Below the pieces are notes generated by a model. That model saw only the letters and a program-made list of their open reading frames with translations. It was not told the origin of the DNA and searched no databases. A program made the translations under genes and the position numbers. Below, one piece after another: positions 7,986 to 15,600 of a DNA stretch of 33,444 nucleotides. This stretch comes from Candidatus Kuenenia stuttgartensis (GTDB lineage Bacteria; Pseudomonadota; Alphaproteobacteria; SMXS01), in assembly GCA_943329845.2 (NCBI GenBank), contig CALQFM020000048.1:1-33444 (forward strand). Reading direction: 5' to 3'. Each line of letters starts with the position of its first letter. Position 1 is the first letter of the stretch.

Positions 7986-8732
7986 ATGTTCCCGCTTTTC
8001 GACGACAATCCGCATGGCGGCCGTTCCTACGTGAACTGGGCCATCATCGCGCTGTGCGTGCTGGTCTATTTCTGGCAGGCGGGCCTCAGCGAGCAGGACG
8101 GGCAGGAGGCGGCCTACGTCTTCGGCATGATCCCGGCGGTGCTGTTCCACAGCCTCAAGCTGCCGCAGGAGATCGCCGTCATTCCGGCCTGGGCGACGCT
8201 GCTGACCTCCATGTTCCTGCATGGCGGTTTCATGCACCTGGCCGGCAACATGCTCTATCTGTGGATCTTCGGCGACAATGTCGAGGAGGTGATGGGGCGC
8301 GGGCGCTTCCTGGTGTTCTACCTGCTGTGCGGCGTGGCGGCGGGGCTGACCCAGGCGCTGCTCGACCCCGGATCGAAGATCCCGATGGTCGGCGCCAGCG
8401 GCGCCATCTCGGGGGTGCTCGGCGCCTATTTCCTGCTGTTCCCGCGCGCCAATGTGAAGGTGCTGATGTTTCCGTTCGGGCTGGTGTTCGTGCCGGCCCT
8501 TATCGTGCTGGGGCTGTGGTTCCTGCTGCAACTGCTGGACGGCCTTCGCGGCCCGTCGGGCGAGGGCGGCGTGGCGTTCTGGGCCCATGTGGGCGGCTTC
8601 GTCGCCGGCATGGTGCTGTTGCCGCTGTTCAAGCCCGGACATATCCCCTACTTCGCACGCGGCCATCACCGCCCTTTCAGCTTCATCCGCAAGAAGCGCG
8701 ATCCGGCCGACGGGCCCTGGGGACGGCGCTGA
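7986..8732 (+). CDS. Rhomboid family intramembrane serine protease
   Basis: A six-helix membrane protein of 248 residues. The rhomboid features are all present: FLHGGFMHLAGNMLYLWIFG (about 77-96) with the HxxxN oxyanion helpers, catalytic Ser138 in GASGAISG, and catalytic His201 in AHVGGFVAG. It cuts transmembrane segments of other membrane proteins within the lipid bilayer; its natural substrate is not predictable. The basic tail (RGHHRPFSFIRKKRD) is probably cytoplasmic. I chose ATG at 7986, where the family homology starts; an upstream ATG at 7950 adds twelve unlikely residues. It converges on the small gene at 8735 with two bases between. Confidence 0.93.
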   Translation: MFPLFDDNPHGGRSYVNWAIIALCVLVYFWQAGLSEQDGQEAAYVFGMIPAVLFHSLKLPQEIAVIPAWATLLTSMFLHGGFMHLAGNMLYLWIFGDNVEEVMGRGRFLVFYLLCGVAAGLTQALLDPGSKIPMVGASGAISGVLGAYFLLFPRANVKVLMFPFGLVFVPALIVLGLWFLLQLLDGLRGPSGEGGVAFWAHVGGFVAGMVLLPLFKPGHIPYFARGHHRPFSFIRKKRDPADGPWGRR

Positions 8733-8734
8733 CG

Positions 8735-8941
8735 CTACGCGTCCGGCGCCAGCCATTCGGCGACAATATGGCGGGCGTGCCGCGGCTGGGTCTCCGGATG
8801 CTGATAGCGATACACCGTGACCGCCGCCTCGAAGGCGCGCGGATCGATGATGCCGCTGGCGCGCAACGCCGAATAGGCGCGCGTCGCGGCTTCGCGGCAG
8901 GCGCTGCCTTCGGCGCACAACTCGACGGGAATCCCGATCAT
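8735..8941 (-). CDS. Small protein of unknown function (68 aa)
   Basis: Not recognised. It is taken as real because ATG at 8941 is preceded by AGGAGAG at ideal spacing and the gene fills the gap exactly, ending two bases from the rhomboid stop. The protein (MIGIPVELCAEGSACREAATRAY...) is soluble and mixed helical, with two early Cys residues (9 and 15) and no signal peptide. A perfect FNR/FixK-type palindrome lies 60 bases upstream of its start, a distance similar to that upstream of the Rieske gene, so it may be oxygen-regulated. Confidence 0.6.
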   Translation of the reverse strand: MIGIPVELCAEGSACREAATRAYSALRASGIIDPRAFEAAVTVYRYQHPETQPRHARHIVAEWLAPDA

Positions 8942-9001
8942 GTTTCTCTCCTCCCTGGGGGCCAGAAGGGCGAAGCGTCATGCGCTGCCGGCGGGCATGC
9001 A

Positions 9002-9033
9002 TTGATTCGAATCAAGCCCGGGATCCGGATCAA
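9002..9033. promoter_or_regulatory. FNR/FixK-type box plus a degenerate second box
   Basis: TTGATTCGAATCAA at 9002-9015 is a perfect TTGAT-N4-ATCAA palindrome, the FNR/Anr/FixK consensus. Eighteen bases further on, 9020-9033 reads as TTGAT-CCGG-ATCCC on the minus strand, one intact half plus a weak half. The sequence ATCAAGCCCG is repeated with the same 18-base period. The site lies between the small gene (minus, start 8941) and the M20 gene (plus, start 9116). No good -10 sits at the class II distance on either strand, so the target is unclear. Confidence 0.55.
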
Positions 9034-9115
9034 GCCCGCTCGACAGCCCAGGCCGCGCCGCCTACGCTGATGCCTGGCGCGCCGCAGGTTGGGGCAAGCG
9101 AAAGGCTGGGGACCG

Positions 9116-10420
9116 ATGAGAACCATGACGTTGATGCTGGGCGCCGCGGTTGTGCTCTCGGCGGCCTCGCCAGCGCGCGCCGCGCCGGCCGACCAGGCGG
9201 CGATCCGGGCAGGGGCCGCCGCCGTCGATCAGCAGGTGATCGCCTGGCGCCGCGACATCCACCAGCATCCGGAACTGGGCAACCGCGAGGTCCGCACCTC
9301 CAAGATCGTCGCCGACCATCTGCGGTCGCTGGGCCTGGAGGTGCGCACCGGCGTGGCGCATACCGGTGTCGTCGGCGTGCTGAAGGGTGGCAAGCCGGGA
9401 CCGGTCGTCGCCCTGCGCGCCGACATGGACGCGCTGCCGGTCACCGAGCCGGCGGGCTTGCCCTTCGCCTCGACGGTGAAGGCCGAATACAACGGCCAGC
9501 AGGTCGGCGTCATGCATGCCTGCGGCCATGACGCGCATACGGCGATGCTGATGGGCGTGGCGCAGATCCTGGCCGGCATGAGGGCCGACCTGTCCGGCAC
9601 GGTGGTGTTCCTGTTCCAGCCGGCGGAGGAGGGCGTGCCCACGGGCGAGACCGGCGGCGCCAAGCAGATGATCGCCGAAGGCGCGCTGGCCAACCCCAAG
9701 GCCGACGTGGTGTTCGGCGTGCACACCTGGCCGGGCCCGCCCGGGCGGCTCACGGTACGCACCGGCGGCACCATGGCCGGCTCGGACCAGCTATACGTGA
9801 CGGTGAAGGGCCGGCAGACCCACGGCGCCATGCCGTCCAAGGGCGTCGATCCGGTGACCGCTTCGGCGCAGATCATCGTCGGGCTGCAGACCATGGTCAC
9901 CCGCCAGATGGATGCGGCGGCGTCGCCGGTTGTCATCTCGATCGGCAAGATCTCGGGTGGCGTCCGGCACAACATCATCCCCGACAAGGTCGAGATGTCG
10001 GGCACTATCCGCCACCTCGATCCCGAAACCCATGACGCGTTTCTCGATCGCATCCGCAGGACCATCGACGGCATCGCCGAGCTAGCGGGCGCCAGCGCCG
10101 ACGTGACGATCGAGCCCTACGCACCCCCGGTATTCAATCCGCCCGAGCTGGTGGCGCGGATGACCCCGACGCTGGAGCGGGTCGGCGCGGGCGCGGGCGG
10201 CCTGTTGCGGGACGCGCCCGCCACCATGGGCGCCGAGGACTTCGCCTGGTACCAGAAGGAGGCGCCGGGAATGTATTTCTTCCTGGGCATCGACAAGCCG
10301 GGCGCCAAACCGGGCGCGCCCAACCATTCGCCCGATTTCTTCATCAACGAAGACGCGCTGAAGACCGGCGTCGAGGCGATGGTCAGCCTGACGCTCGACT
10401 ACATGGCGGGCGGCAAATAA
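9116..10420 (+). CDS. Exported M20-family amidohydrolase/peptidase
   Basis: A protein of 434 residues with a Sec signal peptide (MRTMTLMLGAAVVLSAASPARA, cut near 22). The M20D motifs follow in order: RRDIHQHPELG (45-55), ALRADMDALPV (99-109), MHACGHDAHT (133-142) with metal-binding Cys/His, the catalytic Glu pair in QPAEEG (169-173), and GVHTWP with a metal His at 203. A dimerisation insert with RQTHGAMPSKG and a C-terminal MGAEDFAWY complete the fold. Relatives cleave N-acyl amino acids, hippurate or indole-acetyl conjugates. The export signal means it works in the periplasm. ATG at 9116 follows a GGGG tract. Confidence 0.93.
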   Translation: MRTMTLMLGAAVVLSAASPARAAPADQAAIRAGAAAVDQQVIAWRRDIHQHPELGNREVRTSKIVADHLRSLGLEVRTGVAHTGVVGVLKGGKPGPVVALRADMDALPVTEPAGLPFASTVKAEYNGQQVGVMHACGHDAHTAMLMGVAQILAGMRADLSGTVVFLFQPAEEGVPTGETGGAKQMIAEGALANPKADVVFGVHTWPGPPGRLTVRTGGTMAGSDQLYVTVKGRQTHGAMPSKGVDPVTASAQIIVGLQTMVTRQMDAAASPVVISIGKISGGVRHNIIPDKVEMSGTIRHLDPETHDAFLDRIRRTIDGIAELAGASADVTIEPYAPPVFNPPELVARMTPTLERVGAGAGGLLRDAPATMGAEDFAWYQKEAPGMYFFLGIDKPGAKPGAPNHSPDFFINEDALKTGVEAMVSLTLDYMAGGK

Positions 10421-10448
10421 AAATGGCCCCGGCGGGGAGGCCGGGGCC
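10415..10448 (-). terminator. Strong rho-independent terminator read from the minus strand
   Basis: On the minus strand GGCCCCGGC-CTCCCC-GCCGGGGCC (10448 to 10425) is a perfect 9-bp stem followed by ATTTTTATTT. The plus strand has no T-tract after it, so it is built to end minus-strand transcription although no protein gene is seen there. Its U-tract overlaps the stop codon of the M20 gene. Confidence 0.85.
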
Positions 10449-10539
10449 AGTCATGAACGGTACGGTGCGGGAAGCGTCTGGCGGGTATGCTCAGAGTACC
10501 GTTCAGGGGGTCACACGTGGGATGGTCTCCGCGCGCGAC
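10418..10539 (-). ncRNA. Candidate FNR-dependent small RNA (about 120 nt)
   Basis: The unit has a promoter and a terminator but no credible protein. A perfect FNR-type palindrome (10574-10587) centred 41.5 bases before the predicted start at 10539 is joined to a -10 TCTAGT (10551-10546). The RNA would contain a 10-bp stem TGAACGGTAC / GTACCGTTCA (10505-10496 with 10463-10454) enclosing a C-rich loop with CTTCCCGCACC, then the terminator hairpin. The 3' half is nearly the same as the end of the Rieske oxygenase mRNA. It may instead be the scar left when the body of a Rieske paralogue was deleted, which would leave promoter and 3' end behind. No expression evidence is available. Confidence 0.4.
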
Positions 10540-10545
10540 CGGTAA

Positions 10546-10587
10546 ACTAGACAACGCTCCGGCACCGCGCTCATTGATTGCAATCAA
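10546..10587 (-). promoter_or_regulatory. FNR/FixK-type promoter of the gene-less unit
   Basis: TTGATTGCAATCAA at 10574-10587 is a perfect FNR-type palindrome. A -10 element TCTAGT lies at 10551-10546 on the minus strand. The distance from palindrome centre to -10 (29.5 bases) equals that at the Rieske promoter, which fits a class II activated promoter. Confidence 0.6.
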
Positions 10588-10762
10588 CGGTCCCCCTTGA
10601 AAAGGGCGACCGCGATAATCGCTAAGCCTTTCACGTTTCGGGCACATTTCGCCGCCGCCGAGGAAGGAACCGGCGGCTTTGCGCTGTTTCTACTTCCGGT
10701 TGTGCCGTCAAAATCTGGGCGCTTTCCCGCGGTAGTGTTTCAGCAGTGAAATCGCCGGGGAA

Positions 10763-11098
10763 ATGCGGATGCAGAACTTGCTGGGCATCGTGTCGCTGGT
10801 GGCCCTGTGCGGCGTGTTCATCGGCGCGCCTTCGTGGGTCGCGGACGGCGTGCTGCCGTCGCCCTTCGAGGTCAGGCAGGGGGCGATCATGCAGTTCGTC
10901 GACCTGGCCGAGACCGACGACGTGAAAATCTGTCTCGACGCCGGCTCGAAGGTCGCGGCGCTGATTAGCTATGACGGCAACGAGGGCGCCGTCGCCTATG
11001 GCGACTGCGTCATGGTCCAGGCCCGGAACGTGGCGATCCGTGCGGCTGACGACATGCCCCGCGGGACGGTCGTCACCGGCGTCTATGCGCTGGACTGA
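10763..11098 (+). CDS. Small exported protein of unknown function
   Basis: A protein of 111 residues, not recognised. An N-terminal hydrophobic signal (MRMQNLLGIVSLVALCGVFIGA) is followed by an acidic mature part with two Cys (in VKICLDAG and YGDCVMVQ) that could form a disulfide. Its alternating beta pattern ends in RGTVVTGVYALD. ATG at 10763 follows GGGG; an in-frame ATG at 10769 is also possible. It reads alone on the plus strand between the gene-less unit and the Rieske gene, with which it converges. Confidence 0.65.
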   Translation: MRMQNLLGIVSLVALCGVFIGAPSWVADGVLPSPFEVRQGAIMQFVDLAETDDVKICLDAGSKVAALISYDGNEGAVAYGDCVMVQARNVAIRAADDMPRGTVVTGVYALD

Positions 11099-11112
11099 TC
11101 GGGAAGACGGAA

Positions 11113-11139
11113 AGAACCCCAGCCGGTGAAGGCCGGGGC
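11113..11139 (-). terminator. Terminator of the Rieske oxygenase gene
   Basis: On the minus strand GCCCCGGCC, a short loop and GGCTGGGG form a stem of about 8 bp with one G-U pair, followed by TTCTTTCC. It lies about 35 bases after the Rieske stop codon and matches in position the terminator at 10425-10448. Confidence 0.6.
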
Positions 11140-11147
11140 TCCAGTCA

Positions 11148-11197
11148 GGAACGGCACGGTGCGGGAAGCGTCTCAGGCGTGCTGAATGTACCGTTCC
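11148..11197 (-). repeat. 3' hairpin element shared with 10454-10505
   Basis: On the minus strand GGAACGGTAC (11197-11188) pairs with GTGCCGTTCC (11157-11148) around a loop that holds the Rieske stop codon and CTTCCCGCACC. The copy at 10505-10454 has the same stem with a T-A outer pair in place of G-C. The segment from AGACGC to the terminator differs between copies by two substitutions and a two-base indel. Confidence 0.75.
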
Positions 11198-12567
11198 AGA
11201 TTTCTGTGCAGGTCGCGGATGCGGCTCTCCTGGTAGTTGCCGACGGAGACCGCGTTCTTGCCGATCGTCGTCGCGTGCAGACCTTCCTGAACGAACGGAA
11301 TGTTCGACATGTCCTGGTCGAAGACCGCGCCCAGGCCGCCGAGTTCCTTGGCATCCGCCCAGACCTGGTCATCGGTCATGATGTGGACCGGGACCGGCGC
11401 GGGCCGCGGCTTGCTGGCGTCGACCCGGTGCAGGATCATGATTTCGACGATCGCCGATTCCGGATTGTTCCCGTCGGGCCGGAACCGGTAGATGATGTTC
11501 GGGCTGAAGCCGCCCCACGGAAAGAAATTGGGGAACACGAAATACTGGATGGCGTCGAGCATCTCGCTGTCGGATGCGTCATCGCAGCCGACCCCGGTCA
11601 GCTCCTTGCAGCGCCCCCGGGCCACCTCCGCCATGAACGTGCGGGCAGTCTGGCCCTCCGGCAGCGTCAGGCTGCCGACGGCGCCGACCTGGCGTCCCGA
11701 CGTATTGACCATGGCGTCCACGGTCTGCTGGCCTGAGCACGACTGCAGGTGAGGGCTGGGCACGCCCATGGGCGTGATCATGCGGTTGAAGTTCTGGCCA
11801 TCGTAATTGTCGTATTGCGTATTGGCGTCCGCCGTGTGCGGCATGATCTGGGGATGCGTGTCGATGACGTGGTAGCTCTCGATGAACGCCTCGGCGCAAA
11901 CCTTCCAGTTGGCGGGCATGCGCTTCCTGACGTGCACCGCCTTGTAGCAATCCTCGAGCCTCCAGCGCTTGAAATGGTCGACCATCTCGCCGAGGAAACT
12001 CTCCAGCGGCGCGCAGTCCGGATCGGGATTGATGAAGGCGAAGCCGCCCCAGGTGCCGACCCGTGCTTCGGGCAGGCGCCCGTTGACCGCATCGACGTGG
12101 GGAAAATCCCAACGGCAGGGAATCTCGGTCAGCGCCCCCGAAATATCCCAGGTCCAGCCGTGATAGGGGCAGCGGAAGCTGGAAACCGAACCGTCCTCGG
12201 TCCGCAGCTTGCGGGCTCGGTGCAGGCAGGCGTTGACGAACGCCTTGATCTCGTCCGGCGCGGTGCGGACGACGATGAAAGACAGGCCGACGATATCGTA
12301 GATCACATGGTCCCCGACATCGGGAATTTCCTCCTCGCGGCAGGCCATCTGCCAGACCTTTTTCCAGACGCCTTCGACCTCGAGGTCGTGCCATTCGCGC
12401 GAGAAGTAGCGGTCGGCGGGAATGTCGTCCGAACCGACATAGGTGTAGCCCTGCTTTCGGAGCACGTCGGGCACGGCCCGCGTGTCGCGGTCCAGGATGT
12501 CCTGCACGGACGGCGCATCGCAACGTGCGTCGCCGGTTTTCAGTCCCTTCGGGGTCTCGATGTTCAT
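11173..12567 (-). CDS. Rieske-type ring-hydroxylating oxygenase, large subunit
   Basis: A protein of 464 residues. The Rieske [2Fe-2S] ligands are Cys114/His116 (ACLHRARKL) and Cys133/His136 (CPYHGWTW). The catalytic mononuclear iron site has His233 and His238 in ESYHVIDTHP, with an acidic ligand expected near the C-terminus. It would use O2 and electrons from a separate reductase to hydroxylate an aromatic ring or demethylate a side group; no reductase or small subunit is encoded nearby. I chose ATG at 12567 because the family starts there; an upstream in-frame ATG lies inside the promoter region. Regulation: a perfect FNR-type box lies 54 bases upstream. The end of the gene folds into a hairpin shared with the unit at 10418-10539. 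Confidence 0.92.
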   Translation of the reverse strand: MNIETPKGLKTGDARCDAPSVQDILDRDTRAVPDVLRKQGYTYVGSDDIPADRYFSREWHDLEVEGVWKKVWQMACREEEIPDVGDHVIYDIVGLSFIVVRTAPDEIKAFVNACLHRARKLRTEDGSVSSFRCPYHGWTWDISGALTEIPCRWDFPHVDAVNGRLPEARVGTWGGFAFINPDPDCAPLESFLGEMVDHFKRWRLEDCYKAVHVRKRMPANWKVCAEAFIESYHVIDTHPQIMPHTADANTQYDNYDGQNFNRMITPMGVPSPHLQSCSGQQTVDAMVNTSGRQVGAVGSLTLPEGQTARTFMAEVARGRCKELTGVGCDDASDSEMLDAIQYFVFPNFFPWGGFSPNIIYRFRPDGNNPESAIVEIMILHRVDASKPRPAPVPVHIMTDDQVWADAKELGGLGAVFDQDMSNIPFVQEGLHATTIGKNAVSVGNYQESRIRDLHRNLERYIQHA

Positions 12568-12592
12568 GGCGCCCGCTCCAGTTTGCCCAGCC

Positions 12593-12634
12593 AGTAGACT
12601 GGGAAACAGCCGGTACTCCATTGATCGCGATCAA
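12593..12634 (-). promoter_or_regulatory. FNR/FixK-type promoter of the Rieske gene
   Basis: TTGATCGCGATCAA at 12621-12634 is a perfect TTGAT-N4-ATCAA palindrome. A -10 TCTACT lies at 12598-12593 on the minus strand, placing the box at -41.5 from a start near 12586. This is the class II layout of FNR-activated promoters. Confidence 0.65.
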
Positions 12635-12668
12635 CGAACCTGGACCGCGGTGCAATTTTCCAGGGCGC

Positions 12669-15600
12669 CTATTCGGCGGGCGCGGGCCGCTTGCGTGGCA
12701 GACGCGCGAGAAGGCGCTTCACCGGCTTGCCGGCGTCGGCCATCAGCGTGTACGCCACGGGCACGATCAGCAGCGTCAGGAAGGTGGACGACAGCAGGCC
12801 GCCGATGACCAGCACGCCCATGGGACGCCGCCATTCGGCGCCGTCCGATGTGGCCAGCGCGATCGGGATCATGCCGAACACCGCCGACAGCGCGGTCATC
12901 AGGATCGGCCGCAGCCGCAGCGGCGCCGCGGCGCGCATGGCGGCGGCTGCGTCCATGCCCCGTTCGCGGAACTGGTTGGCGTATTCGACCAGCAGGATGC
13001 CGTTCTTCATCACCAGTCCCATCAGCACGATCAGGCCGATCTGGGCGAACAGGCTGAGGCCGCTGCCGTCCAGCCAGATCAGCAGGAAGGCGCCGATGAA
13101 GGCGAGCGGCGCGCACAGCATCATGATCGCAGGCTGCGCGAAGCTGTCGAACTGGCTGGCCAGCACCATGTAGATCACCAGCAGCGCCATCAGGAAGGCG
13201 AACCCGATGGCGGCCGACGACTCCTTCATGGTCTTGACCATGCCTTCGGAGCGGACCGAGTAGCCGGCGGGGAGATCCATCTCCCCGACCAGCCGCTGCA
13301 GCTCGGCGTCGGCCTGACCGAGGGTGACGCCGGTGCTGTTGGCGCCGGTCACCTCGACCATGCGGCTGCGGTCCATGCGGGTGATCTCGACAGGCCCGTT
13401 GCCGATGGTCAGGCTGGCCACGTTGTCGAGGTCGACAAGGTCGCCCCTCGCATTGGGGATCTGCACCAGGCTCAGCCGCGACAGGTCGTCGCGCTGGCTT
13501 TCCTCCAGCCGCACCCGGACGTCGTAGCGTTCGCCGCCTTCCTGGTAGGTGCCGACATCAACGCCACCGACCAGCGCGCGGACCGTACCGGCCAGCCGGT
13601 CTACCGACACGCCAAGGTCGGCCGCGGTCTGCCGGTCCACATGCACCTGAAGCTCAGGCTTGCCGGCCTCGAACGACGTCTTCACGTCCTGGAAGACGGG
13701 CAGGGGGCGCATCCTCGATGCCAGCTCCTGGGCGAGCCGGTCCAGCTCGCGCAGATCCCGGCCCTGGAACATCTGGTCGATCGGCTGGGCCGCGCCCGCG
13801 CCGCCCGAGACCCACGGAATCTCGGCCAGTTTCACCGACTTCAATGCGCCGCCGTGCCGGCGCATGGCAGTGCGAACCTTGTCCATGATCTGGAACTGGG
13901 TCACGTCGCGGTCGCTCTTGGGCTTGAGGCCGACATAGAAATCAGCCTTGTTCACCTTGTTCTGCACACCGGCGCCGACGGTCAGGAACACCGATGCGAC
14001 GCCGTCGATCTTCTCGATGTCCCGCGCGATCACCTGCGCCACCTGCCTGGTCTGCTCGATGCCGGTGCCCAGCGGCAGTTCGATCAGGGCGGTGAATTCG
14101 CTGCGGTCTGTCTGCGGCATGAACTCATTGGGAACCTGGCCGGCGACGAGCCCGCCCAGCACCACCGCGCCGACCAGCGCCGCCATGGCGATCCAGCGGC
14201 GGCGCAGGGTCGCGTCTAGGATGCGGGCATAGGTCTGCTCCAGGCGCACATGAAGTTGCTCGAGCCGTTGCAGCAGGCCGGCATGGCCGTCATGCCTGGC
14301 GAGGAAGCGCGAGCTGAGCATGGGCGTCAGGGTAACCGAAACCAGGAACGACACCGCCACCGCGAACGACACGGTGAGGCCGTACTGGAAGAAGAACGAG
14401 CCGACCAGGCCCTCCATGAAGGCGATCGGCACGAACACGGCGATGACGGTGAGCGTGCCCGCCAGCACCGCGGCGCCAACCCGGCGCACGCCCTCGGACG
14501 CGGCCTCCCTGGGCGGCATCCCTTCCTCGATCAGCCGGTGAATGCTCTCGACCACCACGATGGCGTCGTCGACCAGCAGGCCGACCGAGACGGACAGGGC
14601 CATCATGGTCAGCATGTTGAGGGTGAAACCACAGACATAGAACGCGAAGAAGGTCGAGATCACCGAGGTGGGAATGGCGATGGCGACGATCACCGTGCTG
14701 CGTGGGTTGAGCAGGAACAGGAAGGTGATGATCACCGCCAGCAGGGCGCCCAGCACCATGTCCATGGTGACGTCGTGGATCGACGACTGGATGAACAGGG
14801 CCACGTCCTTGGCGATGACCATCCGCACGCCCGCCGGCGCCTCCGCCTGGAGTTCGCGCAGTGCCTCGCGTACCGCCTCGGCGACGGCCACCGTGTTCTT
14901 GCCGGATTGGCGCCTGATATCCAGCGACACGCCGCGCTTGCCGCCCAGCTCGGCATAGGTGCGCTCGTCCTCCATGCCGTCCTCGACGCGGGCGACGTCG
15001 CGCAGCCAGATCGGCGATCCGTCGCGGAAGGCCACCGCCACGTTGCCGAATTCGGCGACGGATTCGACCTCGCCCTTGGTCTTGACCGAGAACTCGCGGG
15101 TGCCGCCGCCGGACTCGATGCGACCGCCGGGGATTTCCGCATGCTCCGAGCCGATGGCGGCGATCACCTGCTGGGCCGAGACGCCGAACCCGCGCAGCTT
15201 GTCGATGTCGAGCCAGACGCGCACCTCGCGGTCGCGGCCACCGACCAGCTCCACCGAGCCGACGCCCGGAATGCGCTGCAGCGCTTCCTTCACCGTGTCG
15301 TCGGCATAGAGCGTCAGGTCGCGGATCGGCAGGTCGCCCGCCACCAGCACCGACATGATCGGCTCGGAGTCCGGGTCGACCTTGTCGACCACCGGCGGTT
15401 CGGTCTCCTTCGGGATGTCGCCGCGAGCCAGCGCGATCTTGTCGCGGACCTCCTGGCTCTTGGTGTCGACGTTCTCGGACAGCTCGAACTCGATGAAGAT
15501 CTGGCTCAACCCTTCCGAGCTCACCGACCGCATGGTTTTGATGCCGGAGATGGTGTTGAGCTTCTCCTCGATCGGGTCGGTCACCTCGGTTTCGATGGTC

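Follow-up and report, generated by a model that had tools for sequence, protein, structure and literature searches.

A Rieske oxygenase gene behind an FNR-type box and a predicted stand-alone small RNA homologous to the 3′ end of its mRNA

The window, that is, the whole stretch of DNA that was analysed, comprises 33,444 nt of a 3.68 Mb genome (G000), which is one of ten genomes of the same family that were compared (G000–G009). On its minus strand lies a gene for a ring-hydroxylating oxygenase alpha subunit (11173–12567; PF00355 and PF00848), here called Rieske A. The gene is preceded on the same strand by the FNR-type box TTGATCGCGATCAA (12621–12634), a perfect match to TTGAT-N4-ATCAA, which is separated by 22 nt from the −10-like hexamer TCTACT (12593–12598). 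Transcription is predicted to start at about 12586, and the ATG at 12567 lies 25 nt past the hexamer. A preliminary description of this DNA had reported a perfect FNR/FixK box at 12621–12634, placed at the activating distance of −41.5. The box is indeed present, and its spacing from TCTACT agrees with that placement relative to the predicted start.

A second perfect box, TTGATTGCAATCAA (10574–10587, minus strand), stands at the same 22-nt spacing from the −10-like hexamer TCTAGT (10546–10551, minus strand). As had been described, both promoters have a distance of 29.5 between box centre and −10. The earlier reading of the unit at 10546–10587 as gene-less overlooked what appears to be a gene for a small RNA, homologous to the 3′ end of the Rieske A mRNA. 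The predicted RNA is about 120 nt long (10416–10539, minus strand, both ends predicted) and would consist of two stem-loops and a Rho-independent terminator with a T run. Between this gene and Rieske A is an ORF of 111 aa on the plus strand (10763–11098), which has no Pfam or NCBIfam match and whose homologues in G001, G002, and G005 likewise adjoin the stand-alone RNA gene.

A third perfect box, TTGATTCGAATCAA (9002–9015, minus strand), lies between an ORF of 69 codons (8735–8941, minus strand; no Pfam match) and a gene for an M20 amidohydrolase. Of these two neighbours, the divergent 69-codon ORF is the likelier one to be served by the box; for the M20 gene it is a weak candidate driver, there being no −10 peak on the M20 side. 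The same pair of ORFs flanks a box in G003 and G006. Boxes also adjoin M20 genes in several relatives.

The sequence of Rieske A (protein P0001, read from its ATG) has the features of a Rieske non-haem iron oxygenase, namely a C-x-H...C-x2-H motif and a catalytic domain. Residues C114-H116 and C133-H136, which we take to be the ligands of the Rieske cluster, and H233, H238, and D419, presumably the catalytic ligands (H, H, D), are invariant in seven aligned Rieske A rows, where the row from G008 comprises only the part after its stop. By sequence, the best solved relatives are phthalate 3,4-dioxygenase and naphthalene dioxygenase. Rieske and ring-hydroxylating domains are held in common with these and with carnitine/glycine-betaine-type oxygenases; in contrast to both groups, Rieske A falls below the cut-off of every NCBIfam model that it matched (best 101.9 bits against 670). 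No characterised close relative was present in the sequence libraries searched, and the closest database records (86–92%) come from metagenome-assembled genomes.

Eight perfect boxes occur in the genome carrying the window, and none of the reversed control pattern. A first-order base model predicts approximately 0.017 perfect boxes per 33 kb and 1.8 per genome, and chance may thus account for some of the eight. Three of the eight fall within 3.6 kb in the window, a clustering reproduced by random placement in 45 of 200,000 trials. Given this clustering and the zero count of the control pattern, a chance origin of the Rieske A box was rejected.

Orthologues of Rieske A are found in six relatives of the same family (73–92% identity), and the box lies upstream of all seven genes, that is, the window gene and its six orthologues. 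It is perfect in six of them and has one mismatch in the seventh (G007). No orthologue was found in G002, G005, or G009. In G008, the gene (L150, G008:C69) is interrupted by an in-frame stop, possibly an assembly error, and contains an extra segment, but it has an intact box and 3′ hairpin. The box was rejected as a general feature of Rieske genes, since none of 23 other Rieske loci retrieved in the same search (L035–L057) has it.

Across the ten genomes there are 66 perfect boxes, 62 of which were examined, the remaining four all being in G009. Eighteen of these 62 precede a Rieske start by no more than 180 nt. By orthogroup, six belong to A, eight to B, three to C, and one to D; group C is looser, with one of its three genes (G008) only 50% identical to the group reference. 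A further box in G004, 347 nt from a Rieske start, was left out of this count, and Rieske neighbours in the lower-G+C genomes G007–G009 were assigned by tblastn. Within the genus alone, 13 of 38 perfect boxes precede a Rieske start. Assuming 30 to 68 Rieske genes per 3500, the upper figure being the count of first-look candidates in G000, binomial probabilities are 4e-14 to 1e-9 for the genus and 1e-17 to 1e-11 for all ten genomes, values that are overstated because the genomes are related. The family is rich in oxygenases, each genome encoding at least 9 to 20 homologues of Rieske A (E 1e-60; a floor drawn from at most 27 scored candidates in each), and Rieske oxygenases are the largest target class found among the boxes.

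Terminal oxidases are also represented. All five genomes with a ccoN match (G001, G003, G004, G006, and G007) have a box about 1.2 kb ahead of this gene; four of the matches are over the cut-off, and ccoN is split between contigs in G006. An ORF of 272–292 codons separates box and ccoN in the first four of these genomes. No match to ccoN was found in G000, and in G005 a box lies 170 nt before cydA. The preliminary description had considered it unexpected that an anaerobic regulator should govern an enzyme that consumes O2. This expectation was misplaced: the cbb3 oxidase operons and the one cydA of the same family carry the same box and likewise consume O2, and an O2-using enzyme under FNR is thus no paradox.

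Other boxes stand near genes of different kinds. A perfect one (L147:3743, G000:C78) precedes by 322 nt a gene whose product has a PhaC-type (polyhydroxyalkanoate synthase) domain. In G002 (L155:2983) and G001 (L259:2774), a perfect box stands 19–31 nt ahead of a called gene of about 565 codons; the G002 gene carries a GGDEF domain, which suggests a link between FNR and cyclic di-GMP.

The spacing between box and −10 could be compared over 32 promoters. At a spacer of 22 nt, the −10-like score is 2.88 for Rieske promoters (n = 19; next-best spacer 1.96) and 3.78 for the RNA units (n = 5; next 2.34). For the cco promoters (n = 4), a spacer of 19 scores 2.95, slightly above the 2.60 of spacer 22, and the four boxes near M20 genes give no peak. 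The best of spacers 21–23 over all 32 promoters was reached by none of 2000 shuffles. The individual −10 sequences of Rieske A are poor in G003, G006, G007, and G008.

A candidate regulator resides in every genome of the family. An FNR with the motif C-x2-C-x7-C, a further cysteine aligned with the fourth of FNR and presumably its counterpart, and an ETVSR helix is encoded in all ten, and in all ten its gene lies 0.2–1.5 kb from a Rieske gene. The protein of the window genome (G000:C77) has the four cysteines and the E-x-x-S-R recognition helix of a [4Fe-4S] FNR, and matches the NCBIfam FnrL model at 169 bits, below the cut-off of 300. The best solved relatives of the family FNR are entries for FixK2 and FNR-type regulators. 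In G000 (G000:C77; L006, L146), the FNR gene, a box, and Rieske B follow one another directly on the same strand, an order also found in G001 and G004. Sequence footprinting, −10 spacing, and the resident FNR thus agree with the earlier claim of an FNR-type box at class II activating distance before a Rieske oxygenase, common to the unit at 10546–10587. They support the prediction that the box in front of Rieske A, like that of the stand-alone unit, is a class II (−41.5) site for FNR or a FixK-type relative.

The likeness between the two transcription units extends to their 3′ ends. Rieske A closes with a hairpin whose loop, ACGCTTCCCG (11162–11171), spans the stop codon, followed by a G+C-rich terminator (11101–11200, minus strand); the 5′ arm of the stem is coding sequence (L-E-R-Y). 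Stem-loop 2 of the stand-alone RNA, with its loop ACGCUUCCCG at 10468–10477, and the terminator after it share 83% identity over 67 nt with this end (E 8.5e-12). Fold z is −7.75 for the stand-alone stretch (10414–10546) and −3.82 for the Rieske A 3′ end (11100–11205). The same hairpin and terminator close each of the seven Rieske A genes. Stand-alone copies occupy the same place in G000, G001, G002, and G005, flanked by the M20 gene and a homologue of the 111-aa ORF. In an alignment of 11 rows, the loop ACGCTTCCCG is invariant in every row, and ten stem pairs are formed in 110 of 110 cells. Covariation is modest: both partners changed in three of 20 pairs, and 31 of 500 shuffles reached as many, while the covariation score was reached by none of the 500, in shuffles that ignore relatedness.

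A model built from these 11 rows (R1) finds the element in all ten family genomes, in one or two copies each. Its 12 strong matches comprise seven Rieske A 3′ ends and five stand-alone genes; any further match inside the family has E 0.05 or more. The match at 11101–11200 (E 1.8e-15) holds by construction, because that stretch is a row of the model. G009, in contrast, lies outside the model, and there R1 finds (E 8.8e-7) a stand-alone unit that adjoins M20 and has a perfect box of its own. Such a box precedes all five stand-alone units, which are kept in five genomes of two genera. Box and RNA are retained where Rieske A is absent (G002, G005, and G009) or interrupted (G008), and this retention without an intact enzyme argues most strongly for the importance of the RNA.

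Among 190 genomes of the class, R1 gave six weak matches outside the family (E 0.002–0.007), none of which has a perfect box within 400 nt. These were rejected as occurrences of the element: five of the loci have no CTTCCC close to the match, and at the sixth (L237) CGCTTCCCG is present, but it falls beyond the stretch that was matched, within an adjacent reading frame.

The origin of the stand-alone form can be approached through the coding part of the hairpin. Other Rieske proteins end in similar residues (e.g., LDRYV and LDKYL), and the loop is missing from all 15 non-A Rieske 3′ ends compared. Because these other C-termini are similar but loopless, the 5′ arm of the stem is most simply seen as a relic of Rieske codons. 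Most simply, then, the stand-alone gene would descend from a copy of Rieske A that lost its coding body and kept its promoter and 3′ end. In an M20 tree, stand-alone units occur in a clade of G000, G001, G002, and G005 and in the distant G009, whose sister G008 has Rieske A. The hairpin of G009 closely resembles the 3′ end of G008 Rieske A, which favours a separate origin in G009. A claim that two independent origins are proven was nevertheless withdrawn. The tree requires the state ‘stand-alone only’ to have changed twice, yet one old origin followed by several losses may be the history instead.

Prospective targets of the RNA were sought by complementarity. The loop ACGCUUCCCG could pair with ribosome-binding sites of the GGGAAG type. 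In G000, ten exact 10-base loop complements lie outside the element, and none is in the 100 nt that precede a called gene start. Loop complements before an ATG were examined at 20 of 22 sites in G000 and 20 of 26 in G001, and include some real gene starts. One candidate, the ribosome-binding site of an enoyl-CoA hydratase gene, pairs fully in G001, G002, G004, and G005, pairs with a wobble in G000, and is unpaired in the other five genomes. With full pairing kept in only four of the ten genomes, it is not a convincing target.

Together, these observations suggest that Rieske A is activated by FNR or a FixK-type regulator at low O2, along with a small RNA that shares the hairpin and terminator of the Rieske A mRNA, a reading to which we assign a probability of roughly 70%. 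As O2 falls, the regulator would act at the box and activate Rieske A, and more enzyme would probably keep flux going at low O2, much as cbb3 oxidase sustains respiration. The stand-alone RNA would be made from a second promoter of this kind. Because this RNA has the same hairpin and terminator as the end of the Rieske A mRNA, one RNA module would be supplied from two sources at low O2, namely the stand-alone gene and the 3′ end of the Rieske mRNA, presumably by processing. The exposed loop would most likely base-pair with the translation starts of mRNAs.

A bolder proposition, to which we would give slightly less than even odds, is that the selected output is the RNA and not the enzyme. An FNR-activated small RNA would then have been born as the 3′ end of an oxygenase mRNA, would probably more than once have become a gene of its own through loss of the coding body, and would persist where the oxygenase is gone or broken.

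The stand-alone unit could also be a mere wreck of a duplicated Rieske A, its promoter and terminator lingering through recent descent and its transcript idle. Homology of the RNA 5′ arm to the C-terminal codons of Rieske A would be expected of such a wreck, and the interruption of the G008 gene and the lack of a convincing target point in the same direction. Synonymous sites at the 3′ end of Rieske A do so as well, showing no added constraint and no above-average conservation (177 of 312 windows are as conserved). However, an idle remnant accords poorly with the invariant loop and fully paired stem in all 11 copies, with the strong fold of the stand-alone stretch, and with units that keep their own box across two genera, and this explanation is judged improbable. 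Similarly unlikely is the suggestion that the shared hairpin stabilises the 3′ end of the mRNA or enhances its terminator, without acting in trans. The hairpin does directly precede the terminator in all 11 aligned copies, as a stabiliser might, but this would leave unexplained both its retention under its own promoter in genomes without Rieske A and a loop more conserved in sequence than the stem.

Another set of doubts concerns the regulator. The box might be a repressor site, or be bound by another protein of the CRP/FNR family (FixK, Dnr, or an NO sensor), so that the promoters would answer to a different signal or be repressed at low O2. FixK and FNR recognise the same box. Five HTH_Crp_2 proteins exceed the Pfam cut-off in G000, one of which (L136) is without N-terminal cysteines; as four of the five are proteins other than FNR, a FixK-type protein may bind the box. 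In the available text of a study of Sphingopyxis granuli TFA, FixK and FNR are indeed treated together (PMC7713065). The spacing from box to −10, however, is that of an activator, the same box precedes ccoN wherever ccoN was matched, and the FNR gene stands directly before a box and a Rieske gene in three genomes. A repressor or a different signal is accordingly given little weight relative to activation by FNR or a FixK-type relative.

Some elements of the favoured reading have known counterparts. FnrS of E. coli is a stand-alone FNR-activated small RNA, and the RNA predicted here would likewise be driven by FNR from its own promoter. It differs in that no Rfam family comes near its gathering score in positions 8500–13000 (best 21.9 bits against 112). 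The nearest known kind, by analogy, is the FNR-activated 3′UTR-derived small RNA represented by NarS of enteric bacteria, which, according to the available text, derives from the FNR-activated narK mRNA (PMC9438474). Both the origin from an mRNA 3′ end and the FNR-activated parent gene are shared with NarS, here as predictions from sequence. The parent here, in contrast, is an O2-using Rieske oxygenase of an alphaproteobacterium, and there is a second, stand-alone copy with its own FNR-type box.

The available text on the FnrN/FixK regulon of Sphingopyxis granuli TFA describes a box TTGAc/t-N4-g/aTCAA with most sites near −41.5, including a ccoN box at −41.5 and a box at −40.5 for a flavin-containing monooxygenase (PMC7713065). 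Box type, site position, and the ccoN target are thus shared with the family studied here, and the monooxygenase provides a precedent for an oxygenase under Fnr. The main text of that study contains neither ‘Rieske’ nor ‘sRNA’, whereas Rieske oxygenases form the largest target group found here. Going by the available text of these two sources, FNR-activated mRNAs that release a 3′UTR small RNA, and an oxygenase in an Fnr regulon, are therefore already known. In the literature searched, which was covered in part, there was no report of Rieske oxygenases under FNR, or of such a small RNA becoming a gene of its own under the same control.

The findings have implications for the biology of this oxygenase-rich family. 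A sensor of anaerobiosis seems to drive several Rieske oxygenases in addition to terminal oxidases, and this regulon is testable. With relatives that carry the mRNA tail only, both forms, or the stand-alone form only, the birth of a small-RNA gene would be traceable within a single family. If the bolder proposition is true, the low-O2 control of an oxygenase-rich metabolism would be tied to a post-transcriptional regulator.
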